From Daphnia pulex (lineage: Eukaryota > Arthropoda > Branchiopoda > Diplostraca > Daphniidae), in NCBI RefSeq assembly GCF_021134715.1, contig NC_060021.1:9084501-9148500 (forward strand): a DNA stretch of 64,000 nucleotides. The letters run 5' to 3'. Of the stretch, positions 4,843-45,819 are shown in pieces; within the stretch, counting starts at the first letter, position 1; every line of letters begins with the position of its first letter. Under the pieces are notes generated by a model that was not told the origin of the DNA, did no database searches, and saw only the letters and a list, made by a program, of their open reading frames with translations. The position numbers and the translations under genes are program-made.

Positions 4843-5207
4843 TGATGAAACTCGGAACCTTTTGCTCTCTTTCTCTCCCTGTCTCTCACTATTCGACTCG
4901 GTCCAACAGCGATGTAAGAAGTCCGCCTGCCAATTCGTATCGGCGCCATGTTTTACAACCCATTAGAAAAATCACAAGTAGGATTAGTTTTATTATTATT
5001 GCTATTTCTTTTGTTCCACTGAACCTTTCGCGTTCGATTAAAATTTTTATGGAATTCATCTTGTCGTTTCTCTTATTCAGGTGCTTTTGAAACCGAATCC
5101 TCGCTTGAAGAAAATTGAACATGTTACTACTTTATCTCATTCTGCCTTTTAAAACCATGTTACTCAATATGGGTGCTGGTTATCCTTAAAGATTTGTTTC
5201 TTATTGA

Positions 5208-5213
5208 AATAAA
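5208..5213 (+). terminator. Poly(A) signal of the whirlin gene
   Basis: AATAAA lies about 370 bp after the whirlin stop codon, in AT-rich sequence. It is the first canonical signal downstream of the stop and is the likely 3' end of the gene. Confidence 0.55.
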
Positions 5214-5229
5214 CGATTTGTTTGACTTT

Positions 5230-6794
5230 TTAGACGATAGTCACTCCTAGAAATCAATTCAGCAGTTCGATTTTTTGCCAAAATCAAATGACTTTACGGC
5301 ATTGCAACATTCCCTGAAAAATCTGCCCCGCAGAGCAGACGAAATTCTTTCGATAATAGTTCCAAGTCTCGGGCATTCGGGCATTCGGGAGAACAGACCG
5401 CGTGTTCAGTGACTGAGAACCGGGATCTTGATACTTCATTTTTTCGTTCATTCTCCACTGATTTCGGTTCAAGGATTTCTTGTGCAAATATCCACCTTTA
5501 AAGGAAAATTTCTATTATATTGCTCAATCTGGCTCAATAGCTGTTTTCTGTTAAGTGAGAAAATCCGATTTTCTGTTGCTGGAAAAAATTGTAAATAATT
5601 TATAAAATTATAATTGCCACAAAGAAAGTTTTAGGTTTGTCTAGTTCTCTCTTTTTTGTTGTGCTTTATGACTAGTAAAGCCAAGGCCCAAATGAGCAAA
5701 AACAAATTTAGAAGTAAAAATAGATTTATGGCTTTCACACTGTCAAAGGAACTCGGATACAAGATGTATATATGATTTTGTTTGTTCATGTTGTCTGTAA
5801 GTGATTCCAGATGTTTCAGCACCTCCTGGGCAAAAGTGCTGGACAGTGGATTGCTGAAAGGGAAAACATCCAGTTGGTGAGATAAACCTGCCAGTTATTC
5901 AGAATGTGTTTCTATTCATTTTGGACACTAGGCTACTAAGCTACATGCTACAAGGCAACAGCAAACATTAAGTCAATCACAAATGATGGTGATTTAAGAT
6001 GAAAAATCCTTTCAACAACACCCTATCTGACAAAGCAACAGCATGTTCCTGGCTCATTTGATCCTCACTCTAGGGACTGGGCATCTAATTTAATTAATAA
6101 TCACCTGTATCACCCTTTTAGCTTTATTTTTGTTATTCTGCACTTAACCTTACCTGTGATAAATCTTTCTTTTCTTCTGTAGGTTACAATGACCATTGAT
6201 AATTGGAGAGCAGCATTGGAATGTGACAGCTTGTCTAGCTTCGACTGGTCCTAAGTTACACAATACAAAACACATCATAAGTTACTTTAAAAAATCAAAA
6301 AAATTTAGATTAGGATTTTTAGGTAAGTTGGATGGTTTTTAATTAATAGATAACACAACATATAGCTAATGGTTCTTGTTGCTTTCTGACTTAAAATGTT
6401 TCAGCTTAAATTTCAACTGAAGTTTTCATGCGACCTAGGTGCTTGTGACAATAGAAATCAAGTTATGAAATCCAATAATGCAAGCTATGTCTTCCAAAGC
6501 TAAATAGTTTCTACTGTCATTTAATTTTTATGATAAAATTTCAGGTTAACTTCCCCTGTCAAATTGTGGTAAATCTTCAAGATAAGAAGATATTGATGCT
6601 TTCCCAAGATCCAACTGCTATCTCTTCTGCAGATAACAGCAAAATAATGCTGCCACTCAAGAGGTTGTGGTGACCGCCACTTAGTTCTAATTTAGGACAA
6701 TGTGTAACATTGATAGATTTTAGGTATTGCTTGCTGTTGCTACATATTGTTTGAAATTTATATCTAAATATTCTCGCCCAGCTAATATTCGGCA
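5230..6794. other. Intergenic AT-rich stretch with a diverged repeat
   Basis: No convincing gene is seen. The only structured part recognised is the dispersed repeat at about 5801-6240. The rest is AT-rich sequence with short, unconvincing open frames. Confidence 0.5.
5801..6240 (+). repeat. Diverged third copy of a repeat that is also inside both palindrome arms
   Basis: This stretch resembles about 18480-18790 in the same orientation and about 7690-7985 in reverse. Shared stretches include CAGTGGATTGCTGAAAGG and ACCTGCCAGTTATTCAGAATG. The order of blocks is kept, with several small gaps and substitutions. It lies just outside the palindrome, so the repeat family predates or spread independently of the large inverted repeat. 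No coding capacity or terminal repeats were recognised. Confidence 0.6.
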
Positions 6795-8754
6795 CTCACC
6801 CACTGGGATAATATAATCAGGAGGATGAGGAGGGCTCTGATGCGACTATCATGTTCTTCCGCTGCGACACACCTGTAAGTCACTCACCACGGGATTGTAC
6901 CCAGGTACCCGCAAATTAACTTATTTCTGTTTATTATCTACTGATAACATACTAGCTTTGAACTCTGTGTTTAATCATTCTTAAATTTAGGTCTTTCTTG
7001 CGAGTCGCAAACGAAGTGTTGCGAGTGTACCAAAGGAATGAAAAAGCTGCTGCAAGTCACTTTCTCGTCTTAAGAGCCCACTAGAGACTTTGGAACTTGG
7101 GGTTAACTTCTGGAGTAAAAATCAGATTGAATGAGAAATATGTTTAATTGGTCCATCCATCAAATTGGCCTAGTAAGCTGAAGTCCTGATGGATTTGGTC
7201 TTTGAATTGCTTTTATTATTAATGTGAGGCTTGCTGGCTAGGATACTGAAGAGAACATCTGGCGGCCAGATTTGCCAGTTGTTGTGGCGTAGTGGAAGTA
7301 AGCTAGCCTCTTAATCTAACTTCTTCTAAGTTCTAGTCTTCTTGGTTCCCCCTTCCCTGTTTAGTTGAAGTGTGGGTTTTGAAAATAAAAGCCGTCATTA
7401 TTAAATTCAATTATCCTATTACCGTTCAGAAAATGCATCTATGTGCTCGTATCATAACCTTAATAAAAAGTCGCATATTAAAAAACCTATAGAATAATCT
7501 CCAGTAAAAAACCATTTCGTCGTTTTATCGTTTCATAAATACAGAGCAACAGTTGCAAAGCCAATATGTATTTTGTGCAAGTAACATAGGTTAAGTTGTT
7601 ATATATTTTTTACCTGTCCCAGATTTATCTCACCGGTAGCTTTTCACGAAGGAATCTATTTAGTAGGGCTTTTAGCCCAGACAACCTGTCACATTCCAAT
7701 GCTTCCAAACCTGAGGATCCAATGAGCCAGTTAGGCAGTTACATAATAATGTTGTTGTCAGATAGGGTAGTGTGGAAAGAATTTTTCATCTTCACCATCA
7801 TTTTGAGATTTACTTAACATTTGCTGTTGCCTTGTAGTATGCTACGGGGAATAGAAATGCATTCTGAATAACTGGCAGGTTTACCTAACCAACTGGGTGT
7901 TTTCCTTTCAGCAATCCACTGTCCAAGCACTGTTGCCCAGGTGCTGAAACGTCTGGTTGCAGACAAGGCACATGAACCAGCCTTTATCTTCAGATGTAGA
8001 AGTTGGACTGGTGAAGTTGTGTGGTTGTTGAAGTGCGTTTGATGTCAGCTGGGGTCGTTACCGACTTCGCAACCAGATACTTTGCCATTTGCAATCGGAA
8101 TGATCAGTTTAGGTAAGTCAACGTTTACTATTCATTTCCATGTAAACTTTCGCTCTACCACAAATATCGCATTGCCCAATGTCGGATGTTACGTTTGCTT
8201 CTGTGTTTGTACTTCTTTTTTTTTTTTTCAGTCGAGTTTTACGGTGAAAATTTAGCCACGGCTTGATTTTGAAAAGTGATGAGGTATTTCCACGCCATCG
8301 ACCAGGCTTAATCGAAAGTGAACAATTCTAAGGCATGTAAGTTCATCGTTAGAGTTTTGACTTTTCGAACGATCCATTTTTTAATCTACTTCAATTTATT
8401 TTGTGAAAGCATGCCGAAGATCTTTTGTCTTTCTCCACGTGATCGCTGCCGTGTCATGAAGATGCTTCTTTGAGAGGGTCTATTGCAAGACAAAAATGTG
8501 ATGAGAACAGGAAATCTGAGTTGGTTATAAACTTATAATGTACTTTAAAGATAAATCAAGTAGGTTAGTATATTGCTTACATTTTAGTCTACGTATGTGT
8601 GCTAAAGAGTCGTACACTCTTACGTTACTTAAGAATGTTTAAAATGAAATTTAGGTATATTTTCAACAGGTTCAAACTGATGCAGTGTTTATTTATCATT
8701 TTTCAATTACCATTTTAGAGTTCAAGCTGCAGACGTGCCGGCCAGTTTGCATGT

Positions 8755-9068
8755 CCTTCGCGCTTGAAGGTCACGGTGAACATTACGTGTAAAACTGTCA
8801 ATGCGGTGGTGTAGAGGTTGGGTGAGAAAGGTAGGTGTTTCATCATTATCAAGCAGGTATAATAGCCGCAAGGCTCAGCCATTTGATATTCATTTTGATA
8901 TTCGTTGTTGTAGACCCATCCCCAGCAACGCCAACCTAAGGTAAGGAAAGGCCAGTCTCGAAGGTCACGGAGATCATTATGTAAAACGTACCATGCGACG
9001 GCGGAGAGGTTGGGTGAGAAAGCTACGTGTTTCATCATTATCAAACAGATACAATACCCGCTAGGCTT
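8755..9068. repeat. Tandem duplication upstream of the Tyr/Thr-rich gene promoter
   Basis: Two copies of a segment of about 125 bp, offset by about 190 bp (8755-8880 and 8945-9068), share GAGGTTGGGTGAGAAAG and TGTTTCATCATTATCAA with scattered differences. They sit directly upstream of the TATA box at 9095. A mirror copy lies at about 17390-17703. They could be duplicated upstream regulatory sequence; that function is inference. Confidence 0.6.
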
Positions 9069-9094
9069 AAGAGGTGAGGGTGATCAAAAAATCG

Positions 9095-9130
9095 TATAAA
9101 AAGGAGAGAGAAAAGGCCAGAGACATCAGT
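9095..9130 (+). promoter_or_regulatory. TATA box plus initiator of Tyr/Thr-rich gene copy A, left arm
   Basis: TATAAAAAG at 9095-9103 is followed 33 bp later by a TCAGT initiator (A at 9128). This is the classic arthropod TATA/Inr spacing. A 5' leader of about 90 bp then leads to ATG 9216-9218 and a GTAAAT splice donor. Confidence 0.7.
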
Positions 9131-10165
9131 CGAGTGAGCATCTCCGACACGGCAACAACTGCTGTGCCCTATCTGTCACCATCTGCCTTCTTCACCGTAT
9201 TGCCAGTTACCACCCATGGGTAAATATTCTGTTGTTTTTACATTGAGATTGGTATCAATCCTACTTTTTTCTTTATGTGTGCATGTATTTAATGTTTGAA
9301 TTTGTTTACTGTTTCGTTAATAAGGTGTCGTATGCTGTTGGGTGTTGTATCGTTGATGGCTGGGTCGACCGCTGGTGTAGTGGTGTCTCCTTGGTATGGT
9401 GGAAACCAAACTGCAACGCCGCCGCCTTCCTACACAACTTACGCAACGACCAGTTCCTGCACCGAGGTCTTCAAGTACTACACCACTAAAGGACCGGAGT
9501 TTTATACCACAACTTACGCTGCCCCGAGCCACTACACTGACGCCCTGAAATATTACTCTGCCGCTCTTCCCCGAGTTACTACACCACCAAGGCGACGGAG
9601 CATGACTACGCATGCTGCCCCATCCTACTACACCGAGGCTCCCAAGTATTACTCTGTTCTCAGCTACTTATTGCACCGATTTTCCTAAATACTACCTTGT
9701 ACCCAGCTGCTACACCGAGGCTCCCGCTGATTACTCCACTGAAACGGTCGAATACTACACCGAAGCGGCGAAGTACTACTCTGCCCCGATCTAAACAACC
9801 ACAACTGAGGCGGCCAAGTATTACGCTGTCCCGACTTACTACACAGAAGCTGCTCTTTCGTACTACGTTGAACAGAAATACTACACTGATGCTCGATGAT
9901 GCAGTTCACTACACCGCAGGCCCCAAGTACTACACCGAAGAAGCCGCCTATTACACAACAACGTATGCTGCCTAGTTACTACACCGAGTCTCCCGAGTAC
10001 TACATCACTTAAGGCGCCGGAATTCTACACGTCTATGTATGCTGCTCCTGCCTGCTACACCGAGGCCCGGCATTACTACAACACTGAAGCGCTCAAGTAC
10101 TACACTACAACCTACGCTGCCCCGAGCTACTACACCTACGTCCCGAAGTATTACTGTGCGTAAAA
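9128..10165 (+). pseudogene. Tyr/Thr-rich secreted protein gene, copy A (left arm), broken
   Basis: Exon 1 appears to carry only ATG G (9216-9219) before a GTAAAT donor. Exon 2 begins near 9325. A usable downstream ATG at 9332 opens a 118-codon frame with a short hydrophobic leader (MLLGVVSLMAGSTAG), suggesting secretion, and ends at 9688. The repeat motif YYTEAPKYYS/TTTYAAPS then continues in other frames, with further frame changes and stops (for example at 9792-9794 and 9897-9899) to about 10165. Low-complexity Tyr/Thr/Ala/Pro repeats with a signal peptide suggest an extracellular structural (cuticle-like or gel-like) protein; this is inference. The promoter looks intact, so a truncated product is possible. 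I do not recognise a named family. Confidence 0.6.
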
Positions 10166-10200
10166 GGAGTCGTCTAAAAAAAAAAAAAGTCGCGCTCAAA

Positions 10201-11180
10201 CTGCAATGCCCCATCTGTCACCAACTGCATTCCTCATCGTGTAACCGATTCGCAATTATGGGTAAATATTCTTATTTTTACATGAGTTTTGTATCAATTA
10301 TGTTTTTTTTCTATTTGTTAATATGCCTGTTAATATTTAATATTAATGTTTAAATTTATTTACTGTTTAGACATCTATGGCGTCGTGCTCCTGTTGGGTG
10401 TTGTATCGTTGATGGTTGGATCGACCGCTGGTGTAGCGATGTCTCCTTGGTAAGGCGGAAACCAAACCGCAACGCCGCCGCCTTCCTACACAACTTAGGC
10501 AACGACCAGTTCCTGCACCGAGGTCTTCAAGTACTACACCACTAAAGCACCGGAGTTTTATACCACAACTTACTCTGCCCCGAGCCACTACACTGACGCC
10601 CTGAAGTATTACTCTGCCCCGAGTTACTACACCACCAAGACGACGGAGCAGGACTACGCATGCTGCCCCATTCTACTACACCAAGGCTCCCAGGTATTAC
10701 TCTGTTCTCAGCTACTATTTGCACCGATTTTCCTAAATACTACTCTGTTCCCAGCTGCTACACCAAGGCTCCCGCTGATTACTCCACCAAAACGGTCGAA
10801 TACTACACCGAAGCGGCAAAGTACTTCTCTGCCCCGATCAACACAACCACAACTGAGGCGGCTAAGAAAGACGCAGTTCCGACTTGCTACACCGAAGCTG
10901 CTCTTTCGTGCTACGTTGAACTGAAATACTACACTGACGCTGCTGCCTACTTCACCACGACCCACGTTACACCTAGCTACAACACGGCAGCCCCCAAGTG
11001 CTACACCGAAGAAGCCGCATTTTACACAACCACGTAAGCTGCCTAGTTTACTACATCGAGGAATTTAAGTATTACCCTGCTCCAAACTACTACCAAACTG
11101 AGGTTCATATTTATTGCAATTCTCCCGATTATGCCACCACTACTCACGCTGCTCCGACCTTTACACCGAAGTTCTGAAGT
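10201..11180 (+). pseudogene. Tyr/Thr-rich secreted protein gene, copy B (left arm), broken
   Basis: Tandem paralogue of copy A, starting about 1 kb downstream. Exon 1 ends at 10261 (ATG 10258-10260 plus G, donor GTAAAT). Exon 2 starts at 10371 after TTTAG. The spliced start reads MDIYGVVLLLGVVSLMVG, a good signal peptide, but TAA at 10451-10453 stops the frame after SPW, where copy A reads SPWYGG. A long in-repeat frame with YTE/YYT units resumes at about 10660-11037. No TATA box was seen in front of this copy. It is probably a dead duplicate of copy A; the mirror copy B' carries the same defects. Confidence 0.6.
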
Positions 11181-12670
11181 ATTTCTCTGGATGTGTTGAA
11201 AGATTGCTGAAATACAAGATTGATTGATAAATCACAAGTACATGTCTCTATTTTCTCCTCAAGTACCTTTCCTGTTGCTGATGATTGCATGATGTGAGAA
11301 AATATTTTTGAGTGCTATGTAAACTTACAAATAATTGATCTTGCAAGATACAACAATAAAAATTCAAACTCATGTTTTACACTTCTATAATATTCAAACT
11401 ATTCACTTTTTTTTATAAATGTTTTTCTATCATTAAAATCCGAAGTCCAACAACCAATATTGTTTTGAAAAATCAAAGTCCACACCTATTATTTCTGCTA
11501 AGTCCAGACTTTTGTTTTTGAAAAAAAATTTAAAAAAATTCCCCTTACACGAAGTTTTAAAAAATTTTTATAGCGAAAAAATTTGATACGAATATTTTAT
11601 TGCATTCAAAATTTATTTTCATAATATTCACATACATTTATTTTTCCTGTGGCCCCCAGGGGGGGGGGCCTGTCGCTTTCTCTACCGCGATAATAACATG
11701 ATGCAAGTTTTATGCAAGTTATTATTTGTTTGGCGCAGAAAGCTTGTTTAATCTAGCAGTTCTCGACTGTGTCAAACCTGATATTGATCAAGTTGCCTCA
11801 GTCGTATACTGCATGATTGAATGAAAACTCGAAAGACAACACATCAAACTTTTAAGTCAGCACACAGTTAACACAGAGCAATTTCATGGCATGGATAAAA
11901 ACGACAACACAAAAATTTTCAAGTCAGGAACCCAGATGGAACAGCTCAGCTACAACAGCACAGCAACTTCTGGATTACACTGCAACCGCATGCTGCATAC
12001 AAGGGTTCAATCTGTCTTCGTCACACCTTTCACCATTTGGCTGCAACAAGGTAACCAACAGCGTTGAAGAAGTGTTTGTTATACCTATTTAAGAAAAGAA
12101 AATTATTTTCAAGAAACACAACTGTGTACACATGCATACTCATTTTAACAAAAGAATACAAAGAGTAACAGAAGACTACGCAGCTCAACAGAATGACTTT
12201 GATATCTGATTCAAAATTTCTATAGTAGTCGAGCAAATTGGTCTACTCTCTAGTCATGTTATCTAAAACTGTAATTTGTAAGACATTTGATTAAAATAAT
12301 TACTTTTTGCTGTTGCATGGGATGAGACGTACGTCTAAGAACGGGCAGCGAGACACACGAGGCACGCCATTTCGGAAATGTACAGGCACTTCCAAGTCTG
12401 AGTTGAATGATTTTGCAAATTGGTTACTATGAGCTAAATCACCTGTAAATTTTCACATCAACATTTTACATTCAATAACATTAGGAAATTAACAATAAAT
12501 ACCTTTTAATTTTCATCGTGAGAAACGTCACAACCAACAACCCATTTCTGCTGCGTCTTGGATCAAAATGGCCACTGTTCCTGTTCTTCCCTATCCCTGA
12601 AGACACTCGCGCCACCTGGTGGACATTATTTCAGCCACTTTTCACAGCCACCTATTGACAGCCATTACTC
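11181..12670. other. Non-coding inner part of the left arm
   Basis: AT-rich sequence after the Tyr/Thr-rich copies, with a run of G at about 11659-11668. The open frame at 11886-12092 (starting MAWIKTTTQKFSSQEP) is present in both arms. The two versions differ at many residues and have different ends, so it is unlikely to be constrained coding sequence. No other gene is seen. Confidence 0.4.
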
Positions 12671-13799
12671 ATTAGATAATTGTGTTGAGTGGTTGTCAAA
12701 AGTTTTCCTATTTTTCCATGAAAATTACCGATGAATTCATAAGTAAATTCAAGTTCGTTTCTGTGCAAATTGTTTGTGATGTGGTTTATTCCGTATGTGT
12801 GCTGGATTAAATTCAAAATTCCTCAATCTAACCTGTAGGAAGGAACTGGAAAGGAAACAGTAGCATACAAGTTGCCTACCATCACTAACACCAACTCTTT
12901 TATTAAAAATCTTCGTTCTGCTGAATGCATCATGCAGTTAATACAGGTAAAAACCAAAAATGTCAGTCAAAATTTTTTTAAATACTTGTTCCCAGACTTA
13001 GTTAATATTCGTCTAATTATCAGCATTTTCTATTGATCTTGGTAGGTCACTACCCCAGTGTGGACATGTTTGTTTTTCTGAACATGTTTTTCAACAAATA
13101 ATTCATTGACATACAAGTATTCTTCTTTTGGTTTTAAACTGTTATTTGTTGTCATAGATTGTATTTTCTGTCATAGGGAAAACTATGAAAAATATCATAT
13201 CATCTTGGCCATGGGTAATCTACTAATCTTCAGGTTTATTGCAGCAGCTTAAGAGAAGAATATGAACAAATGCAGGGCAAATACCAACATGTGTTGTATT
13301 TTTCTGAATGTTAAACACAAGCAGTAGGTAGCCATTAACTTTAGTTTATCTGATTAATGTTGGAATATTTATTGACATATTTCCTTTAGATTCAACACGG
13401 CTAACTGTTTGATGCCAAAGTTGGTTGGAACTCAACTCACTGTACGTACTCTAACACAGATAACTGGTGCTGTTGCCTTTCAGCCACAGGCAGGAAAATC
13501 ATTCTTTTCTTCAGAAAATTGTAAGTTTAATTTTTTGTCTTGACCCCCCCCCCCAACACTTTCTGTTAATATTATAGATTTTTATGTTGAAAGAGTTACA
13601 AAGTGTGAAAAGCTAACTAAAAACTTTGTGTATTTGTGTCATAGGGAAAGCTGCTGGAGTAATCTGGTGTTCATGCTCATTTGATACTTTCGTGCCAGCT
13701 AGTGAAAGCCGAAAGGCATGTCAATTCAATTGAGTTGCTCCGTGCTGTCTCGAAGCAAGCAATCCAGCCGTTGCGTTCAGTCATTTGGAACAGGAATCT
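12671..13799. other. Spacer between the palindrome arms
   Basis: Unique sequence of about 1.1 kb not mirrored in the arms. It contains a run of C at about 13544-13553 and several exon-like open segments with splice signals: 12718-12792, 12839-12946, about 13391-13519 and about 13579-13683. No known family was recognised. Confidence 0.5.
12718..12946 (+). CDS. Putative two-exon start of an unrecognised gene in the palindrome spacer
   Basis: ATG 12718-12720 opens a 25-codon segment (starting MKITDEFISKFKF) ending at a GTATGT donor at 12793. TGTAG precedes 12839, from which 36 codons run in matching phase 0 (EGTGKETVAYKLPTIT onward) to a CAG|GTAAAA donor at 12947. Further exon-like open stretches follow at 13391-13519 and 13579-13683, but the phases between them could not all be reconciled. 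It may be a remnant of a gene split or captured by the inverted duplication. Function unknown. Confidence 0.3.
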
Positions 13800-15277
13800 A
13801 ATGGCTGTCAATAGGTGGCTGTGAATAAGTGACTGAAATAATGTCCACCAGGTAGCGGGAGTGTCTTCAGGGACGCTAAGCGGCCATTTTGATCCAAGAC
13901 GCAGCAGAGATGGGTTGTTGGTTGTGACGTTTCTCACGATGAAAATTAAAAGGTATTTATTGTTAATTTCCTATTGCTATTGAATGTAAAATGTTGATGT
14001 GAAAATTTACAGGTGATTTAGCACGTAGAAACCAATTTTCCATATCATTCAACTCAGACTTGGAAGTGCCTGTACATTTCCGAAATGGCGTGCCTCGTGT
14101 ATCTCGCTGCCTGTTCTTAGGCGTACGTCTCATCACATGCAACAGAAAAAAGTAATTATTTTGATCAAATGTCTTGCTAAAGTACCACAGATTTAGTTAA
14201 CAGGACTAGAGAGTAGACCAATTTTCTCCGCTGATATAGAAAATTTGAATCAGATATCAAAGTTATTCTGTTGGTCTGCGTAGTTTTCTGTTACTCTTTG
14301 TATTCTTTTGTTATAATGAGTATGCATGTGTACAAATTTCTGTTTCTCGACAATAATTTTCTTTTCTTAAACAGGTATAACAAAACTTCTTCAACGCTGG
14401 TGGTTACCTTGTTGCAGCCAAATGGTGAAAGGTGTGACAAAGACAGATTGAGCCTTTGTATGCAGTATGCGGTTGCAGTGTAATCCAGAAGTTGCTGTGC
14501 TGTTGCAGCTGAGCTGTTCCATCTGGGTTCCTGACTTGAAAATTTTTGTGTTGTCGTTTTTATCCATGCCATGAAATTGCTCTGTGTTAACTGTGTGCTG
14601 ACTTAAAAGTTTGATGTGTTGTCTTTCGAGTTTTCATTCAATCATGCAGTATACGACTGAGGCAACTTGATCAATATCAGGTTTGACACAGTCGAGAACT
14701 GCTAGATTAAACAAGCTTTCTGCGCCAAACAAATAATAACTTGCATAAAACTTGCATCATGTTATTATCGCGGTAGAGAAAGCGACAGGCCCCCCCCCCT
14801 GGGGGCCACAGGAAAAATAAATGTATGTGAATATTATGAAAATAAATTTTGAATGCAATAAAATATTCGTATCAAATTTTTTCGCTATAAAAATTTTTTA
14901 AAACTTCGTGTAAGGGGAATTTTTTTAAATTTTTTTTCAAAAACAAAAGTCTGGACTTAGCAGAAATAATAGGTGTGGACTTTGATTTTTCAAAACAATA
15001 TTGGTTGTTGGACTTCGGATTTTAATGATAGAAAAACATTTATAAAAAAAAGTGAATAGTTTGAATATTATAGAAGTGTAAAACATGAGTTTGAATTTTT
15101 ATTGTTGTATCTTGCAAGATCAATTATTTGTAAGTTTACATAGCACTCAAAAATATTTTCTCACATCATGCAATCATCAGCAACAGGAAAGGTACTTGAG
15201 GAGAAAATAGAGACATGTACTTGTGATTTATCAATCAATCTTGTATTTCAGCAATCTTTCAACACATCCAGAGAAAT

Positions 15278-16258
15278 ACTTCAGAACTTCGGTGTAAAGG
15301 TCGGAGCAGCGTGAGTAGTGGTGGCATAATCGGGAGAATTGCAATAAATATGAACCTCAGTTTGGTAGTAGTTTGGAGCAGGGTAATACTTAAATTCCTC
15401 GATGTAGTAAACTAGGCAGCTTACGTGGTTGTGTAAAATGCGGCTTCTTCGGTGTAGCACTTGGGGGCTGCCGTGTTGTAGCTAGGTGTAACGTGGGTCG
15501 TGGTGAAGTAGGCAGCAGCGTCAGTGTAGTATTTCAGTTCAACGTAGCACGAAAGAGCAGCTTCGGTGTAGCAAGTCGGAACTGCGTCTTTCTTAGCCGC
15601 CTCAGTTGTGGTTGTGTTGATCGGGGCAGAGAAGTACTTTGCCGCTTCGGTGTAGTATTCGACCGTTTTGGTGGAGTAATGAGCGGGAGCCTTGGTGTAG
15701 CAGCTGGGAACAGAGTAGTATTTAGGAAAATCGGTGCAAATAGTAGCTGAGAACAGAGTAATACCTGGGAGCCTTGGTGTAGTAGAATGGGGCAGCATGC
15801 GTAGTCCTGCTCCGTCGTCTTGGTGGTGTAGTAACTCGGGGCAGAGTAATACTTCAGGGCGTCAGTGTAGTGGCTCGGGGCAGAGTAAGTTGTGGTATAA
15901 AACTCCGGTGCTTTAGTGGTGTAGTACTTGAAGACCTCGGTGCAGGAACTGGTCGTTGCCTAAGTTGTGTAGGAAGGCGGCGGCGTTGCGGTTTGGTTTC
16001 CGCCTTACCAAGGAGACATCGCTACACCAGCGGTCGATCCAACCATCAACGATACAACACCCAACAGGAGCACGACGCCATAGATGTCTAAACAGTAAAT
16101 AAATTTAAACATTAATATTAAATATTAACAGGCATATTAACAAATAGAAAAAAAACATAATTGATACAAAACTCATGTAAAAATAAGAATATTTACCCAT
16201 AATTGCGAATCGGTTACACGATGAGGAATGCAGTTGGTGACAGATGGGGCATTGCAGT
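15278..16258 (-). pseudogene. Tyr/Thr-rich secreted protein gene, copy B' (right arm), broken
   Basis: Mirror of copy B. Nearly every base agrees; one noticed change replaces an Asp by His within a repeat unit (near 15681). It carries the same early stop after the signal peptide and the same frame changes, so the defects predate the duplication or were copied by conversion. Confidence 0.6.
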
Positions 16259-16292
16259 TTGAGCGCGACTTTTTTTTTTTTTAGACGACTCC

Positions 16293-17331
16293 TTTTACGC
16301 ACAGTAATACTTCGGGACGTAGGTGTAGTAGCTCGGGGCAGCGTAGGTTGTAGTGTAGTACTTGAGCGCTTCAGTGTTGTAGTAATGCCGGGCCTCGGTG
16401 TAGCAGGCAGGAGCAGCATACATAGACGTGTAGAATTCCGGCGCCTTAAGTGATGTAGTACTCGGGAGACTCGGTGTAGTAACTAGGCAGCATACGTTGT
16501 TGTGTAATAGGCGGCTTCTTCGGTGTAGTACTTGGGGCCTGCGGTGTAGTGAACTGCATCATCGAGCATCAGTGTAGTATTTCTGTTCAACGTAGTACGA
16601 AAGAGCAGCTTCTGTGTAGTAAGTCGGGACAGCGTAATACTTGGCCGCCTCAGTTGTGGTTGTTTAGATCGGGGCAGAGTAGTACTTCGCCGCTTCGGTG
16701 TAGTATTCGACCGTTTCAGTGGAGTAATCAGCGGGAGCCTCGGTGTAGCAGCTGGGTACAAGGTAGTATTTAGGAAAATCGGTGCAATAAGTAGCTGAGA
16801 ACAGAGTAATACTTGGGAGCCTCGGTGTAGTAGGATGGGGCAGCATGCGTAGTCATGCTCCGTCGCCTTGGTGGTGTAGTAACTCGGGGAAGAGCGGCAG
16901 AGTAATATTTCAGGGCGTCAGTGTAGTGGCTCGGGGCAGCGTAAGTTGTGGTATAAAACTCCGGTCCTTTAGTGGTGTAGTACTTGAAGACCTCGGTGCA
17001 GGAACTGGTCGTTGCGTAAGTTGTGTAGGAAGGCGGCGGCGTTGCAGTTTGGTTTCCACCATACCAAGGAGACACCACTACACCAGCGGTCGACCCAGCC
17101 ATCAACGATACAACACCCAACAGCATACGACACCTTATTAACGAAACAGTAAACAAATTCAAACATTAAATACATGCACACATAAAGAAAAAAGTAGGAT
17201 TGATACCAATCTCAATGTAAAAACAACAGAATATTTACCCATGGGTGGTAACTGGCAATACGGTGAAGAAGGCAGATGGTGACAGATAGGGCACAGCAGT
17301 TGTTGCCGTGTCGGAGATGCTCACTCGACTG
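16293..17331 (-). pseudogene. Tyr/Thr-rich secreted protein gene, copy A' (right arm), broken
   Basis: Mirror of copy A, with a signal-peptide ATG at 17124-17126 and the same 118-codon frame ending at 16770. It uses a mirror-image TATA/Inr promoter, so copies A and A' are transcribed toward each other and toward the spacer. The sequence is indistinguishable from copy A over the part compared. The same frame changes are present. Confidence 0.6.
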
Positions 17332-17363
17332 ATGTCTCTGGCCTTTTCTCTCTCCTTTTTATA
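17328..17363 (-). promoter_or_regulatory. TATA box plus initiator of copy A', right arm
   Basis: Exact mirror of the promoter at 9095-9130: TATAAAAAG at 17355-17363 and TCAGT with its A at 17330. Confidence 0.7.
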
Positions 17364-19690
17364 CGATTTTTTGATCACCCTCACCTCTTAAGCCTAGCGG
17401 GTATTGTATCTGTTTGATAATGATGAAACACGTAGCTTTCTCACCCAACCTCTCCGCCGTCGCATGGTACGTTTTACATAATGATCTCCGTGACCTTCGA
17501 GACTGGCCTTTCCTTACCTTAGGTTGGCGTTGCTGGGGATGGGTCTACAACAACGAATATCAAAATGAATATCAAATGGCTGAGCCTTGCGGCTATTATA
17601 CCTGCTTGATAATGATGAAACACGTACCTTTCTCACCCAACCTCTACACCACCGCATTGACAGTTTTACACGTAATGTTCACCGTGACCTTCAAGCGCGA
17701 AGGACATGCAAACTGGCCGGCACGTCTGCAGCTTGAACTCTAAAATGGTAATTGAAAAATGATAAATAAACACTGCATCAGTTTGAACCTGTTGAAAATA
17801 TACCTAAATTTCATTTTAAACATTCTTAAGTAACGTAAGAGTGTACGACTCTTTAGCACACATACGTAGACTAAAATGTAAGCAATATACTAACCTACTT
17901 GATTTATCTTTAAAGTACATTATAAGTTTATAACCAACTCAGATTTCCTGTTCTCATCACATTTTTGTCTTGCAATAGACCCTCTCAAAGAAGCATCTTC
18001 ATGACACGGCAGCGATCACGTGGAGAAAGACAAAAGATCTTCGGCATGCTTTCACAAAATAAATTGAAGTAGATTAAAAAATGGATCGTTCGAAAAGTCA
18101 AAACTCTAACGATGAACTTACATGCCTTAGAATTGTTCACTTTCGATTAAGCCTGGTCGATGGCGTGGAAATACCTCATCACTTTTCAAAATCAAGCCGT
18201 GGCTAAATTTTCACCGTAAAACTCGACTGAAAAAAAAAAAAAGAAGTACAAACACAGAAGCAAACGTAACATCCGACATTGGGCAATGCGATATTTGTGG
18301 TAGAGCGAAAGTTTACATGGAAATGAATAGTAAACGTTGACTTACCTAAACTGATCATTCCGATTGCAAATGGCAAAGTATCTGGTTGCGAAGTCGGTAA
18401 CGACCCCAGCTGACATCAAACGCACTTCAACAACCACACAACTTCACCAGTCCAACTTCTACATCTGAAGATAAAGGCTGGTTCATGTGCCTTGTCTGCA
18501 ACCAGACGTTTCAGCACCTGGGCAACAGTGCTTGGACAGTGGATTGCTGAAAGGAAAACACCCAGTTGGTTAGGTAAACCTGCCAGTTATTCAGAATGCA
18601 TTTCTATTCCCCGTAGCATACTACAAGGCAACAGCAAATGTTAAGTAAATCTCAAAATGATGGTGAAGATGAAAAATTCTTTCCACACTACCCTATCTGA
18701 CAACAACATTATTATGTAACTGCCTAACTGGCTCATTGGATCCTCAGGTTTGGAAGCATTGGAATGTGACAGGTTGTCTGGGCTAAAAGCCCTACTAAAT
18801 AGATTCCTTCGTGAAAAGCTACCGGTGAGATAAATCTGGGACAGGTAAAAAATATATAACAACTTAACCTATGTTACTTGCACAAAATACATATTGGCTT
18901 TGCAACTGTTGCTCTGTATTTATGAAACGATAAAACGACGAAATGGTTTTTTACTGGAGATTATTCTATAGGTTTTTTAATATGCGACTTTTTATTAAGG
19001 TTATGATACGAGCACATAGATGCATTTTCTGAACGGTAATAGGATAATTGAATTTAATAATGACGGCTTTTATTTTCAAAACCCACACTTCAACTAAACA
19101 GGGAAGGGGGAACCAAGAAGACTAGAACTTAGAAGAAGTTAGATTAAGAGGCTAGCTTACTTCCACTACGCCACAACAACTAGCAAATCTGGCCGCCAGA
19201 TGTTCTCTTCACTCTTCAGTATCCTAGCCAGCAAGCCATTAACATTAATAAAACAATTTCAAAGACCAAATCCATAGACCAAATACATCAAGACTTCGGC
19301 TTACTAGGCCAATTTGATGGATGGACCAATTAAACAGATTTCTCATCCAATCTTATTTTTACTCCAGAAGTTAACCCCAAGTTCCAAAGTCTCTAGTGGG
19401 CTCTTAAGACGAGAAAGTGACTTGCAGCAGCTTTTTCATTCCTTTGGTACACTCGCAACACTTCGTTTGCGACTCGCAAGAAAGACCTAAATTTAAGAAT
19501 GATTAAACACAGAGTTCAAAGCTAGTATGTTATCAGTAGATAATAAACATAAATAAGTTAATTTGCGGGTACCTGGGCACAATCCCGTGGTAAGTGATTA
19601 CAGGTGTGTCGCAGCGGAAGTACTAGTACATGTATGGCAGCACCAGAGCCCGCCTCATCCTCCTGGTTATGACAGCGGGTGAGTGACACC

Positions 19691-20606
19691 GGCGGGCGTT
19701 GGTTAGTGGTTAGTTCGGGAAACGGTGTCACAGAAAAGAAAGGAGCCCAGATATGCATTTACCAACATATACATTGAATTTCAGCAATGTTTTCTCTGTT
19801 TCACTAAATGGATCAAGTCTATAGAACGGCGCCGAAGGATTAACCTGAAATGAGAATGTAGATTTCTTTAGAAGTCGATAATTTCCAAATAAGCTTGTTG
19901 CGACAACAATCATTACCTCAAATTAATCAATTTTAGATCGTCTTAAATGAAAAATCGTTGTAGTGGGCACCGCAACCTCTAGAGTGACAGTAAAGAATTT
20001 GATCTAATGAGGGCTTCAAAATCTGGAGTACGACATAATAGTGAAGTAAGACTCGCGGAACTATCAATTTCCAACAGGCACACAGTAACGACAAGCTGCT
20101 GCAACCTGCAATAGAACAGTAGAAAACCAGCAACACCGACTTCATCAGCTCAATTTGCCTGTACACCTTTCACCAGCTGGCAGCAAGAAACAAAACCATG
20201 AGCATTGTTCAGCTCAGATTCCATCTGGCTAATAAACCTTAATTCTAACATTTAAATAACTATCAAGATACAGACGAAAAAACAAAAAAAAAAAGACGCA
20301 GACGACAGGTGCTACAGCATGAACTGATTATTTCTTGTGTAACTTCACAAAAATAAAATCCTGGAACCAAACAATATGCATAGCATAACATGATAACAGA
20401 ACATTTTATATCCAATTCTAGTTTAAATGAACAAAAGAAGAAATGTAACACACATTATTATTCAAATGAATTAAATAAAACCCAAATTTAAGTCCCCTAC
20501 AACAGAACAAAAAATTTTAAAGATTATTTGCATGGGGAGTCTTCTAATGTAAGATAACCAAATTAATTGAGAAAGTTTGTCGCATTGAATCATTGAAAAC
20601 TTCATT
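19691..20606. other. Region between the palindrome and RNase H1
   Basis: No gene recognised. A short stretch near 20150-20190 (ACACCTTTCACCAGCTGGC) loosely resembles an arm-interior stretch near 12030, suggesting more degenerate relatives of the arm sequence here. The rest is AT-rich. Confidence 0.4.
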
Positions 20607-21597
20607 TTAATAGCTTTCAGCACCTATTTTAGCCAAGGAGTCGGCCTTGTTGTAGTGCGAGGGAACGTGAGACTAAAAAATCAGAATGAAATGAATTAAC
20701 TTTACTATCTACTGACTTTTCTAAACAAGATATGATACCCATTCAACACAATCGAAATCTCGAGTCCAAAAAAGAAGCTGTTCATATAGAGCTTTGTGTA
20801 CGACAGGTTGACCTTGGGACGTCCGCCAGCCATTACTCTGCCATGTGAAAATCCAATCGGTTATTGAATCGATCAAGTATTGAGAATCGGTGAAGATGAC
20901 AACACGTTGGACACCTGCCCGATTAATAATTGTTAACACAAAATCAAGAGAAACAAAAACATTAGCTGCTGTGTACCATAATTTCTCAAGAGCTCACATG
21001 CTCTGATGGCAGCTTTTATTTCAGCCACCTGATTGGTAGGATTTGAATGAATAAATTCATGTCTTCTTAATGGTTCACTTACATTCCTGCATTATAATAA
21101 TATTAACAATTAACCATATTATAATTATATTTCACAACATATTCTGCTACTTACAATGGATGGTTGTTTCCAAACCACACACCAATACCACCTCTCGCAC
21201 CCTGATTACCATTTCCAGGGCAGGCACCATCAATGTAGACAATTACATAACCATTGCGGTCAACTGTGAAGTCTAGAAAACAAATTGTTGTCAAAAATAG
21301 GTTTAGATGAATCAGCACAATGATTCACAAATAGACTGATTAACCTATTCATACACCATACACCCAGCAGAGAATATAAAACACACACATAAAAAAACAG
21401 GAAAAAGTACAAGGTCTAAATTTTAATTTTAAAACTGATCCATCAAAACTATGTACCAGCAGAAAAGTAAGAAAAATGTAATTAATGCACAAAACCCCAA
21501 AGACCTACGACGGTCTACTTTAATTTATTAATTCGTGAATGTCGTGAGAACGTGTTAGGAGGTAGTAAAATCGAAGAAATATATTACCTGGATACAT
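20607..21597 (-). CDS. RNaseH1: Ribonuclease H1, RNase H domain only
   Basis: Endonuclease that cuts the RNA strand of RNA-DNA hybrids. Five coding exons: 21588-21597 (ATG plus 7 nt), 21155-21272, 20977-21086, 20739-20914 and 20607-20672. They sum to 480 nt, giving 159 aa with consistent phases. Catalytic carboxylates are visible: D18 (YIDGACPGNGN), E65 (VAEIKAA), D89 (FTDSQ) and D149 (NKADSLAK). The protein is about the size of bacterial RNase HI. No hybrid-binding domain or clear mitochondrial presequence precedes it in this model, although an upstream non-coding or alternative exon cannot be excluded. The loop after the conserved His (HVPSHYNKAD) is shorter than the usual GHxGxxGNExAD form. 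Five exons and isolation argue for a host gene and not a retroelement domain. Relatives of the palindrome edge lie on both sides. Confidence 0.85.
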
Positions 21598-21915
21598 GTT
21601 TCGCGTAAAGACAAGATGATGTTTCTTGAAACACAGATTTTTTTAAACAGTCTTTCGACACTTAAGTTCAATGCGGAAAGATTCTGGTATTAAATTATTA
21701 ATGGTTTCGCCAGACTACGAAGTTTTGCTTCACGTGCTTCGTCTCGTGCCTTGTGCTACCATAGATAAGACGTCAAGACATGAAAGAAAATGGCGTCAGT
21801 CACTCACGAAACGACACTCCACAATTCCGCCATCTGGTTGACACATTTGACAGTTGAAAATGATCAAAGGCTATGAATAAAGCCATCTAGCGTTAGAAAA
21901 AGAAAACGTACAGGA

Positions 21916-22095
21916 ATACTTTGTTTGCGACTCGCGAGAAAGGGCCCAATTTAGAAATAACTACGCAGACACAGAGTATAAAGCAAGTAGGTTATCAGTA
22001 GATAATCTACGAAAATAAGTTAATTGCCGGGTACCTGGGCATAATCCCGTGGTGAGTGACTACAGGTGTGTCACAGCGGACGGAAGCGACCACTG
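21916..22095 (+). repeat. Third copy of the palindrome's outer edge
   Basis: Resembles about 19460-19625 in the same orientation, and 6860-7010 in reverse. Shared stretches include GTTTGCGACTCGC, TTATCAGTAGATAAT and GGTACCTGGGCA followed by AATCCCGTGGT. It is more diverged than the two arm edges are from each other, and ends near CAGCGGA. It lies on the far side of RNase H1, so that gene is bracketed by direct copies. Confidence 0.75.
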
Positions 22096-24349
22096 AAGTC
22101 GCCTAACTCGTCAGTGAAGTAAGACAAGTTGTGTAGCAGCATAAGAAGATGAAGATGAATACTGATGCAAGATGAAGCTGGATGAGCGAGGGTCGCCAAA
22201 TTCAAGGATGGAGCAGAAAGTTGGTGCAAGTCACTCTTCTATCATGGAAAAATTAAGGTGTGGTGGTTTACTAATGGTCGCCTTTTTCTTTATCCGATTA
22301 AAATAGTAAATACAACTTTTATTCACTGGGTTACAGACGTTATTCAGAATGTTGTAGGTTAATCAAATGTGACCATGTTTTCATCCGCCAACGTTCAAGA
22401 AAATTATCAGTAAAATATTTCTAACACTAATCATTGTAAACAAGCTAGGCATTAACGGAATACCCTAACTCCTTATGTGCAAACCCGAAGCAAAAAAAAA
22501 TAATCCTAAATGCCGCTCATTTACCACCGCTCGGGGTTGTCCACAAAATTCCAAACAGCGCGATTCAAATCTGAGATCTTTCCAAAAAATAAAAGAACCT
22601 TTTCTTCCACAAACCTGAACTTTGTAACTGAATCCAGGTATTTATTTATTTTTTCTCCCAAAGGGTTCCAGGTATGTGACTCTGACAGTTAAAAAAAAGA
22701 CGCGTGCCGTGTGCAGGGTCTCTGGAATATCCATTGGACGCCGTATTTTTTCAATGGCCAGCAGTTCGCCTTTTACTTTTATCGTAGAACTACTGTGTAC
22801 AGGGTTTCCTCACTTGTAAGTTTCTGTTGGGCTAGATAAGAAATATACCATAAGAGACTGACCAAAAAGCACTCATCACAACAGCACATGCATATAGTTT
22901 ATTGAGGGTCAATTTTTATGATACCCCAGAGTTACATTTATTGGCCATCCGAGCCCCTCCTGCGTCCTTGTGCTGGAAGAAGACCATCTGCCTTTTACTC
23001 TCCCTCGCAACTGGACAACGATTGCTATCTGTATTAGCCATTTACTTGATGACATTACAAGATATATCTACATAAATAATATCCGCATTTAGATGACGCA
23101 CCTATCCCGACTATACCCACACAGTCCAGAAAACAATCAACGGCCGTTTCAGATGCAATGTTTAACCCCCCACCAATATTTCCCTCTTGTCGTCGAAATG
23201 AATCATAAAATATGGGCGCCGGTTCGTGACCAGAAGTACTTCCACAATGTTTTTCAATATAGACTATGTAGACTCATTATTACAAGGGTCAGCAGTTGAA
23301 CACTTGACGGACTACCTGTTCCCCTGTGTGTGCGGAGTATTAAGACAAGGGTGGGTGGATACAGTTACTTTAGGCCTCTCATCCAGGTGTGGAGGGGGTA
23401 GTATTGGGATAGGCGTCACTCGGCGGTTATTCTTTTGTTTTCAAACCGACTCGATCGAGCCAAAAAAAAAAAAGGTCAAGTGCTTGCTTAGCGGTTATTT
23501 GAGAAGTATTAAAAAAGGCAAAAACAATAAGAAGAGTTGGTATATCGGTTTACCTGCCGACGCGTTTGGCACGGGATGATACCTCATTGACTCCTTGACC
23601 GGATACTATTAAGTTAAAGAGCCTTGTTCTTACACTCCCCTTCTATTTTCTATCTCAAACAGACATCGCAAACGTTTCTTTTTTTGTTTTTCCAAAAGGT
23701 GAAATTATCAAACAATTTTCGAGAGAGAGAGAAAAAAAGGAACTTTTCAGCTGCTGTTGGTTTCTTTGAACCAATCAGAGACAAGAGAGATGGGTACTAT
23801 TGATTGTTATCCTCCTGACGTGTGTACGTATAGCTATATAGCCTATATATACATCCATTTCTTTTTGGCGTTATTTTTTCTTCTTCCCTTTTCTTTTTTT
23901 TTTACGAGCTGGCCAAGTTTTAACAGAGTCCGCGCTCGCTTGACGTCTGTCTTTCTTTTCCGACCTTATATCCTACCTCACTTTTGCGCCGGACTTTCTC
24001 GCTTTGTTGTCAGTCGTAAATTACGGCCCTCGTTATACTCTAGAAACTGTACCACAGGCAGCAAACTTTCAACTCGTCAAGTTTCAATTCGATAAATTTA
24101 GAAATGAAATTTCAATTCCTTAAAAAATAAAGTATCAAGATTTGCGGATTAGCTGACTATTAAAGGCCTATTTAAGGGTGAGATTATGAGTGTAGTTTAT
24201 AGGCTTTATACTTTACTTTCACTGGTAATACTTTTGGCGAGTTGAAAAAAAAGAGAAAATAAAACTGTCAGTGACGGGAGATTATGAAGCTCAAGAGACC
24301 CACATGGGTGTCTATAATAGCTTTATCTACCCGTGCACCTAGATGTATG
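22096..24349. other. Intergenic, no gene recognised
   Basis: AT-rich sequence with short open frames. The longest runs to 23579 with an in-frame ATG near 23247, and has no recognisable domain. A GA-rich run lies near 23720-23740. Confidence 0.4.
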
Positions 24350-37670: not shown

Positions 37671-37887
37671 TCATAGCTGAAAAATATTGCTGACTAACTG
37701 ACCAAAAGACGTTCGAAATAAAACATTGACAAGAGGATTTAACGCGAGAAGTATCATATTGGCTTTAAACGCTCTAAATAAATAGAGCAATTAAGACGAG
37801 AAACACTAGAAAGCAAGCAACAAGCACCTGCCACTAGATAAAAGGGGTACATGTTTTTCTTGGTTAACAAGGAATGATAATTTTCAA

Positions 37888-39998
<2,111 letters not shown>

Positions 39999-40050
39999 TT
40001 TGAGGAGTGTTCTGAGATTGAATTGAGAATCTGAGAGAAAGAAGGATGAA

Positions 40051-40118
40051 TCGAGCGTTTATCACAGAGCAACGAAGTAATGTCGTCCTCTATGGAAAAC
40101 GGTTCTCGGGATACTGAC
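40051..40118 (-). promoter_or_regulatory. Core promoter/5'UTR block of alpha-tubulin gene 1
   Basis: On the gene strand a TCAGT initiator (A at 40115) is followed at exactly +28 to +32 by GGACG (40088-40084), a match to the DPE consensus RGWYV. The block of about 65 bp is shared by all three tubulin genes and ends in TTCGTTGCTC plus AAACGCTCG. It predicts a TATA-less promoter and a leader of about 120 nt before the ATG. Confidence 0.7.
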
Positions 40119-40745
40119 ACGTCTCTCGTTGGGCTCTACAGAGCACAGCAGCAGACAAGCACCTGGTGGGGAAAAAATGAATCTCGACTTTCCAGAAAGA
40201 TGATGGCCGTTGGCGTTGGCGTGGCGGTGGCGATTGTCTAGACTTGAAAGATGGAGAATGAGATAACAATTTGAAAACCAGCATTTTAACCGATATACTT
40301 TTTTAGAAATGGCGGGAGTTCCTAATTTATACCAAAAATACAGTCTAGCTTTTATTTGTCAACACTGCTGGCAGGTTTGTTTTATTGACTTTTCATAATT
40401 TGGACAAGAAATCCAATCGATCCGAAGGAAAATTGTCTGGATGAAAGTTATATAATTCTTTCAGGAATGTTATAAAAATGCTCTGCATTTATTAATCCTC
40501 GAGGACGAACCTTAACCGTAAAAAATATTTATTTCGATTGTACGAATAGCCGGAATAGCTTTCAAATAAGTGCCTGGAAATATTTCCCCTCCGGTATTTA
40601 TGACAACCCAACAAGACGTTTTCAAAGATATGCCCAGTAGAGCATTGAACACTATAATCTGAATTATCTCTTTCATATTTTTTAACCACGATTTATTTGT
40701 TCCCGTTGTAAGAAAAGAAGACAAAGTATTAAATGTGCGAATATT

Positions 40746-40751
40746 TTTATT
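40746..40751 (-). terminator. Poly(A) signal of alpha-tubulin gene 2
   Basis: AATAAA on the gene strand, about 130 bp beyond the stop codon of copy 2. Confidence 0.55.
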
Positions 40752-40880
40752 TGCTTGTAAAATAAACTCAAAATTGAGCAATTGAGGAGCAAATGAATAT
40801 TATGGAAGCAAGCAACAAACACGTAGCCACTACATTAAATGGAGTATGTTTCTGGGCGACATTCAATGTATATATTACAA

Positions 40881-42986
<2,106 letters not shown>

Positions 42987-43043
42987 TTTCAGAAGTGATT
43001 TGGAATGGATTCGAGTTAACTTTAATTAAAGTGGTAACAAAAG

Positions 43044-43110
43044 CGAGCGTTTATCACTGAGCAACGAAGTAATGTCGTCCTCTGTGGAAAACGGGTCTCG
43101 GGATACTGAT
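43044..43110 (-). promoter_or_regulatory. Core promoter/5'UTR block of alpha-tubulin gene 2
   Basis: TCAGT initiator (A at 43107) with GGACG at exactly +28 to +32 (43080-43076). The same block structure as gene 1. Confidence 0.7.
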
Positions 43111-43699
43111 AAGAGTAACGGAAAGACTGCGATAAAGAAAACGGAGAGCCTATGCGTCACCTGGCGGTTAGAAAATGTCACTTTTTGAATTCACGTTTAA
43201 CAAGGCCAAAACGTTTTCCTGCGGAGCTTTAAGAGACTAGAGACATGGCAAATACTCGTTCAATAATCCGGTTAAATATTATCAGATTTTACCATTAAAC
43301 TTTTTTAAAATAAGAATATTTTTAAAAAAGGTTTCTACCAGTTCTACTGCTATGAAATAATTGCTTTGTAGAATGTATAATGGTTTGAAACATAAATGTC
43401 TATGGCGATTCTTTTATATTTTGTTTACTTCTCTGTTCATTTTTTGCAAAGGCAGCTCTTAAGGAAGACATGATAGAGATCCGAAAAATTTTGAATCGCA
43501 AATGCCACTGTACTTTGGAGAATTCAATTTTTGGTTAGCGTGTAAAATTAGAAATAAAGATCAAGAAGAAAATGCAACACCAGAATTTTCATATTTGATC
43601 GAAAGGCTTTAAAAAGAAGAGATGGAGACACGAAAAATACTAATCAGACACCTGAAGCTAGGTTAAAAGGAACCATGTTTTCTTAGGTAATAAATTGGT

Positions 43700-45819
<2,120 letters not shown>

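Follow-up and report, generated by a model that had tools for sequence, protein, structure and literature searches.

A near-identical core within an old inverted duplication of Daphnia pulex points to gene conversion between arms that carry broken genes

We analysed a 64,000-nucleotide stretch of the Daphnia pulex genome (contig NC_060021.1, positions 9,084,501 to 9,148,500 of the forward strand; hereafter the window), in which two inverted arms of about 5.9 kb face each other across a short spacer. The divergence between the arms has two layers: a long core is almost identical in both arms and the flanks on either side of it are clearly diverged. The core carries tandem pseudogenes of a tyrosine/threonine-rich (Tyr/Thr-rich) protein, and its identity is not due to constraint. 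Ectopic (non-allelic) gene conversion from arm to arm in an old inverted duplication is the likely explanation.

Two layers of divergence between the inverted arms

In a blastn self-comparison of the window a single match of 5,886 columns joined 6813-12667 to 19670-13799 (minus strand) with 97.96% identity, 75 mismatches and 12 gap openings. A repeat search of the window returned the same two arms, in pieces. The inverted near-palindrome of the original prediction thus exists, with the following parts.

6813-12667, plus strand: left arm of the inverted duplication (blastn self-comparison)
13799-19670, minus strand: right arm of the inverted duplication (blastn self-comparison)
12668-13798, no strand: spacer of 1,131 bp (blastn self-comparison, Pfam)
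7277-11951, plus strand: homogenised core of the left arm, gap-free with 2 differences in 4,675 sites (blastn, MAFFT, hidden Markov model)
14507-19181, minus strand: homogenised core of the right arm, partner of 7277-11951 (self-comparison)
6813-6927, plus strand: diverged outermost flank of the left arm, partner 19550-19670 (hidden Markov model)
6928-7122, plus strand: second homogenised tract, a short one of 195 nt with 0 differences within the outer flank, partner 19355-19549
7123-7276, plus strand: diverged, gapped outer patch between the two homogenised tracts, partner 19182-19354 (hidden Markov model)
11952-12667, plus strand: diverged inner flank of the left arm (alignment)
13799-14506, minus strand: diverged inner flank of the right arm (alignment)

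The MAFFT alignment of the arms contained 82 mismatches in 5,836 ungapped columns; the count differs from that of blastn because the two programs align the gap edges differently. Between 7247 and 11951 only three of 4,705 sites were mismatched (7276, 8834 and 10777) and no gap was present. We placed site 7276 in the outer flank, a choice that agrees with the hidden Markov model (HMM), and the core counted in this way is the one listed above, with no difference at all from 7277 to 8833 and from 10778 to 11951. The outer flank (6813-7246) had 25 mismatches in 433 sites and 5 gap openings, corresponding to a Kimura two-parameter (K2P) distance of 0.060, and the inner flank (11952-12667) had 54 mismatches in 698 ungapped sites and 5 gap openings, a K2P distance of 0.082 (both MAFFT). 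An HMM with two rates described the arms far better than a single rate (log-likelihood -314.5 vs -431.2) and divided the alignment into five segments.

6813-6934: diverged, 12 mismatches in 121 sites
6935-7114: low divergence, 0 in 180
7115-7279: diverged, 14 in 165
7280-11945: low divergence (core), 2 in 4,666
11946-12662: diverged, 54 in 704

The longest identical run between the arms was 1,942 nucleotides and the maximum in 2,000 shuffles was 834. Fisher's test of core against flank gave P of about 1.6e-52, an approximate value because both classes included the 33 sites at 7247-7279. Shuffling the outer flank 20,000 times never produced a run as long as the identical one at 6928-7122, and one of 20,000 shuffles of the pooled flanks did. 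The divergence along the arms was accordingly as uneven as predicted, and the predicted core with few differences and no net gaps was found with slightly refined edges. The flanks had been expected to be 7-10% apart with gaps; the gaps are present and the inner flank lies in this range, but the outer flank is only about 6% diverged and is a mosaic that includes the 195-nt identical island.

The spacer had no second copy within the window by blastn, and no convincing Pfam match was found in the three tested open reading frames (ORFs) that lie in it or reach into it. A simple palindromic-read or head-to-head artefact was considered separately and is ruled out by the unpaired spacer together with the diverged inner flanks.

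Broken genes, older copies and the absence of constraint

The original prediction had let the homogenised tract coincide with a pair of Tyr/Thr-rich genes. The tract does contain the Tyr/Thr-rich DNA, but it has about twice the length of the Tyr/Thr-rich stretch, reaching past it by about 1.9 kb on the upstream side and by about 0.7 kb on the downstream side, and instead of a gene pair we found two tandem pseudogenes in each arm, four in all, with broken frames.

9157-9988, plus strand: pseudogene copy A (part), left arm; the broken Tyr/Thr-rich reading runs to about 10165 (frame breaks, stops)
10199-11060, plus strand: pseudogene copy B (part), left arm; the broken reading runs to about 11190 (frame breaks, stops)
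15398-16259, minus strand: pseudogene copy B, right arm (blastn)
16470-17301, minus strand: pseudogene copy A, right arm (blastn)

The Tyr/Thr-rich reading changed frame six times in copy A and at least three times in copy B, with in-frame stops in addition and a possible fourth change in copy B near 11141; low-scoring windows were ignored in this tracing, which has a resolution of 15 nt. Two of the frame changes stand at corresponding places in the two copies. Some of the breaks may predate the tandem duplication, or may have been passed between A and B by conversion. Apart from the single base 10777 the copies are equal between the arms, breaks included. We concluded that the Tyr/Thr-rich copies are pseudogenes, and conversion is therefore not preserving that protein. 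The homogenised DNA yielded no intact gene in a search that leaves room for short or split ones. The Tyr/Thr-rich reading is rich in alanine and proline as well, with YTT/AP-rich repeats that have the look of Daphnia proteins. Pfam searches with two Tyr/Thr-rich readings gave weak matches only, all under the curated cut-offs, and when viral contigs were searched for a relative of the reading at 9293-9685, eight stretches fitted a pattern and none was confirmed.

Within an arm the tandem copies have diverged considerably. Copies A and B were 83.6% identical over 873 columns with gaps counted (91 mismatches, the remainder gaps; blastn), which by arithmetic from these counts means that about 11% of the ungapped sites differ. 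This divergence is uneven: at 9400-9599 the copies differed at 7 of 192 sites, compared with 42 of 190 at 9150-9349 and 29 of 150 at 9850-9999, so that the patch shared by A and B looks like an older conversion tract within the arm.

Upstream of copy A, TATA-like (about 9095) and initiator-like (Inr-like, about 9127) sequence was noticed by eye within 9095-9132, about 34 bases apart. The arms do not differ anywhere in this interval.

Two older relatives of the arms stand in the window, one on each side of the palindrome and both on the minus strand, as if the palindrome lay within or beside an ancient third copy.

5783-6076, minus strand: older diverged arm fragment matching arm positions 909-1184 (about 7703-7978); nhmmer expectation value (E) 2.9e-38, 75-79% identity in blastn with gaps counted
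21915-22103, minus strand: older diverged arm fragment, the third copy used as outgroup, matching arm positions 47-226 (about 6841-7020); nhmmer E 1.5e-27, about 82% identity in blastn

Besides these two fragments, blastn over the whole window detected only a 25-nt piece at 6212-6236 as a further arm copy, and nhmmer over the first 30 kb only one match, at E 0.61. The stretch 20066-20354 had a loose blastn match (59%, E 1.1e-4) to arm positions 5120-5423 that nhmmer did not support (E 0.61), and it may be a chance match or a very old copy. Further loose blastn matches in the first 30 kb were weaker than this one; in the control with reversed sequence the best values were E 2.5 for nhmmer and E 0.044 for blastn.

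Compared with the left arm, the third copy at 21915-22103 differed at 19 of 93 sites inside the outer identical patch and at 7 of 69 sites in the neighbouring diverged patch; the outer identical patch is thus not slow-evolving. Because the tandem copies have diverged, the pseudogenes are broken in both arms and the third copy differs in the outer patch, we concluded from these comparisons within the window that the identity of the core is not due to constraint.

Gene conversion and rival explanations

We consider gene conversion between the arms of an old inverted duplication to be the likely origin of the pattern, as the original prediction had also proposed. It is favoured because the two-state model fits, the edges of the core are sharp, a second small identical patch is present, constraint is opposed by the data and each arm carries derived changes of its own. 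With the sister tandem copy as outgroup, site 8834 was derived in the left arm and site 10777 in the right arm. With the third copy as outgroup (alignment from the nhmmer and blastn searches, judged by eye), sites 6879 and 6899 were derived in the left arm and 6885 in the right arm, with 6927 undecided. Such arm-specific changes are more in keeping with two real copies than with a single sequence pasted twice, although for the core this evidence is thin, consisting of two sites.

A possible course of events is as follows. A block with two tandem Tyr/Thr-rich genes, probably already broken, would have been duplicated in inverted orientation long ago, and the arms would then have drifted to about 8% divergence. 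Recent conversion would have copied one arm over the other, mainly in one tract of about 4.7 kb or perhaps in several overlapping tracts, with at least one further short tract of about 0.2 kb. The repair route we infer is that a break in one arm was mended with the other arm as template, within the same chromatid or across to its sister, by a synthesis-dependent or double-Holliday-junction pathway; the number of events and the direction of copying are likewise inferred. A crossover between inverted repeats on one chromatid merely flips the spacer, and such repair is hence tolerated. Nothing here shows selection keeping the arms alike.

Several points weigh against this explanation. The evidence comes from a single assembled sequence. 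Judged by the classic range, 4.7 kb is a long tract for one conversion; it may represent break-induced replication, or several events that overlap. The two differences inside the core are no more than suggestive and could be sequencing errors.

Using mutation rates of 2.3e-9 to 8.9e-9 per site per generation, quoted for Daphnia in PMC12926508, the core distance of 6.4e-4 would by arithmetic correspond to about 36,000-140,000 generations since homogenisation, with a several-fold error on this date as the Poisson interval on the three core differences is 0.6-8.8. At the same rates the inner flank distance of 0.082 would place the duplication about 4.6-18 million generations ago. In sex-chromosome palindromes GC-biased conversion raises the GC content of the arms. 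Here the GC content was 41.9% in the core, 40.6% in the left outer flank, 38.4% and 38.5% in the inner flanks, 35.1% in the spacer and 41.4% in the window, values for one locus with no outgroup. For D. obtusa, PMC12926508 reports that 40 of 48 losses of heterozygosity were conversion-type events, with no significant GC bias, and the lack of a clear GC signal at our locus therefore says little.

An assembly error is an unlikely alternative that deserves consideration, since the evidence consists of sequence alone. Here the inverted duplication would be true and one core would have been filled or polished with reads of the other arm, making the core identity false; if a gap between real flanks had been wrongly filled, the core would come out near-identical and sharply bounded. 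The structure contains no Ns, which is neutral as to a gap that had been closed. Against such an error, the four distinct flanks are pairwise homologous and 6-8% diverged, and so demonstrate two real copies. Reads that are 8% apart are rarely merged by an assembler, so read mixing could hide only small differences in the core and thereby exaggerate the contrast. Unless an entire core was pasted in, the two cores must then truly resemble each other far more than the flanks do, and the version of the artefact left standing is a gap in one core that was wrongly filled. That version would require a second error for the short patch at 6928-7122, and a derived base in the core of each arm does not fit a plain copy-paste, with the reservation that only two sites speak.

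There is also a slight chance that the structure is a Foldback-like transposon with very long terminal inverted repeats, the arms being its ends and the pseudogenes captured inside. The inverted-arm anatomy with its short spacer would suit such an element, as would the diverged arm fragments nearby. However, no obvious target-site duplication was seen by eye at the outer ends, the exact positions of which are uncertain, and none of the 10 tested ORFs, of which three lie within the spacer or extend into it, had a transposase match.

Preservation of the core since the duplication by purifying selection or slow local mutation, without conversion, is barely credible: the promoter-like sequence upstream of copy A could speak for it, but the frame breaks and stops, the diverged tandem copies, the third copy in the outer patch and the abrupt core edges all speak against it. 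Equally hard to credit is a recent duplication of the whole arms in which recombination with a divergent haplotype later brought diverged flanks into one of them. Such a history likewise predicts an identical core and diverged flanks, but it requires exchange at each edge of the core as well as around the 195-nt patch, between haplotypes about 8% apart, compared with 0.57% of sites heterozygous in a D. obtusa clone (PMC12926508).

Known inverted pairs, significance and neighbouring genes

The locus probably works like known inverted pairs that are homogenised by conversion. In Drosophila, the linked inverted paralogues Hsp70Aa/Ab, Hsp70Ba/Bb and Amylase are homogenised within species by ectopic conversion, and for Amylase of the melanogaster group the likeness is limited to part of the duplication, with flanks evolving independently (PMC3924832). 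Our locus is likewise a linked inverted pair and resembles Amylase in combining a homogenised part with independent flanks. The Drosophila genes differ in being functional and under purifying selection, with an Amylase pattern that tracks the coding sequence, whereas the genes here are broken and the tract reaches beyond them on both sides. For long inverted repeats with homologous gene pairs in Caenorhabditis, such as the hsp-16 locus, conversion has been proposed (PMC1803023). There too the inverted arms are near-identical with intergenic DNA included, but the support came from three species, and here it comes from two-layer divergence in one sequence.

The original prediction had compared the locus with the ampliconic palindromes of sex chromosomes. 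In mammals these consist of inverted arms around a spacer that are kept alike by arm-to-arm conversion; the arms can exceed 1 Mb, with a median of 37 kb in the X set, and have an identity above 99% (PMC8981503). The comparison holds as an analogy only, in the inverted arms about a spacer. The arms here are 5.9 kb long and do not exceed 99% identity throughout, being 98% identical overall and above 99.9% in the core alone, and in place of intact Tyr/Thr-rich genes they carry dead ones. Sex-chromosome palindromes hold intact genes that are usually expressed in the germline; in the arms here the Tyr/Thr-rich copies are frame-broken, and other genes, short or split, may be present. In the parthenogenetic Adineta vaga and Folsomia candida, palindromes have been discussed as substrates of conversion (PMC7953838, PMC5490193); they are also inverted gene blocks in invertebrates, but were found as such by collinearity, whereas ours is one small pseudogene block. 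The D. pulex genome was left out of the palindrome screen in PMC7953838, its annotation being unavailable to the authors. Among the matches listed for Daphnia literature on palindromes, gene conversion and tandem or inverted duplicates we found no description of the locus, and in a further search the Daphnia work among the matches listed concerned ribosomal DNA, Pokey and Dscam.

The kind of event is thus already known from inverted gene pairs, and the point of interest here is the dead genes in the homogenised DNA. The locus is a clean case in which the diverged flanks would date the duplication and the core the conversion, with no protein worth protecting found. Here a mechanical tendency of inverted repeats towards conversion can be distinguished from selection for gene likeness, two causes that are hard to tell apart in Hsp70 and Amylase, the genes being functional. 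As the core difference of 6.4e-4 is below the heterozygosity given for the D. obtusa clone in PMC12926508, the homogenised haplotype may still segregate, in which case population samples could reveal the event.

A very unlikely but distinct possibility is that the locus serves as a source of hairpin RNA. Transcription of the convergent pseudogenes of a secreted-protein-like family across the spacer would yield long double-stranded RNA, small RNAs from it would silence living members of the family, and conversion, perhaps with selection for a perfect stem, would keep the arms complementary even though they encode no protein product. Only the anatomy suggests this, namely the inward-facing pseudogenes, the TATA-like and Inr-like sequence seen by eye and the near-perfect stem of about 4.7 kb, and it assumes living family members elsewhere in the genome.

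Elsewhere in the window, a reading resembling RNase H (Pfam RNase_H, E 4.1e-11) was detected at 20724-20993 on the minus strand, just beyond the right arm. No Rfam match reached the gathering score, and a transfer RNA scan with the bacterial setting gave none. Seven of the 10 ORFs tested in the window were above the Pfam cut-off, representing tubulin (three tandem copies), MIOS, bHLH, cytochrome b561 and fn3. For one tubulin ORF of the three, the best matches among solved structures were alpha-tubulin chains. The three tandem tubulin genes, at 37811-45362 on the minus strand, switch in their pairwise likeness: in alignment columns 900-1349 the first and second copies (T1 and T2) differed at 26 of 450 positions, and from the third (T3) at 75 and 76 of 450, while in columns 1500-1649 T1 and T3 differed at 2 of 150 positions and the other pairs at 9 and 11 of 150. 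These switches look like older conversion tracts, with selection on the exons blurring the signal.

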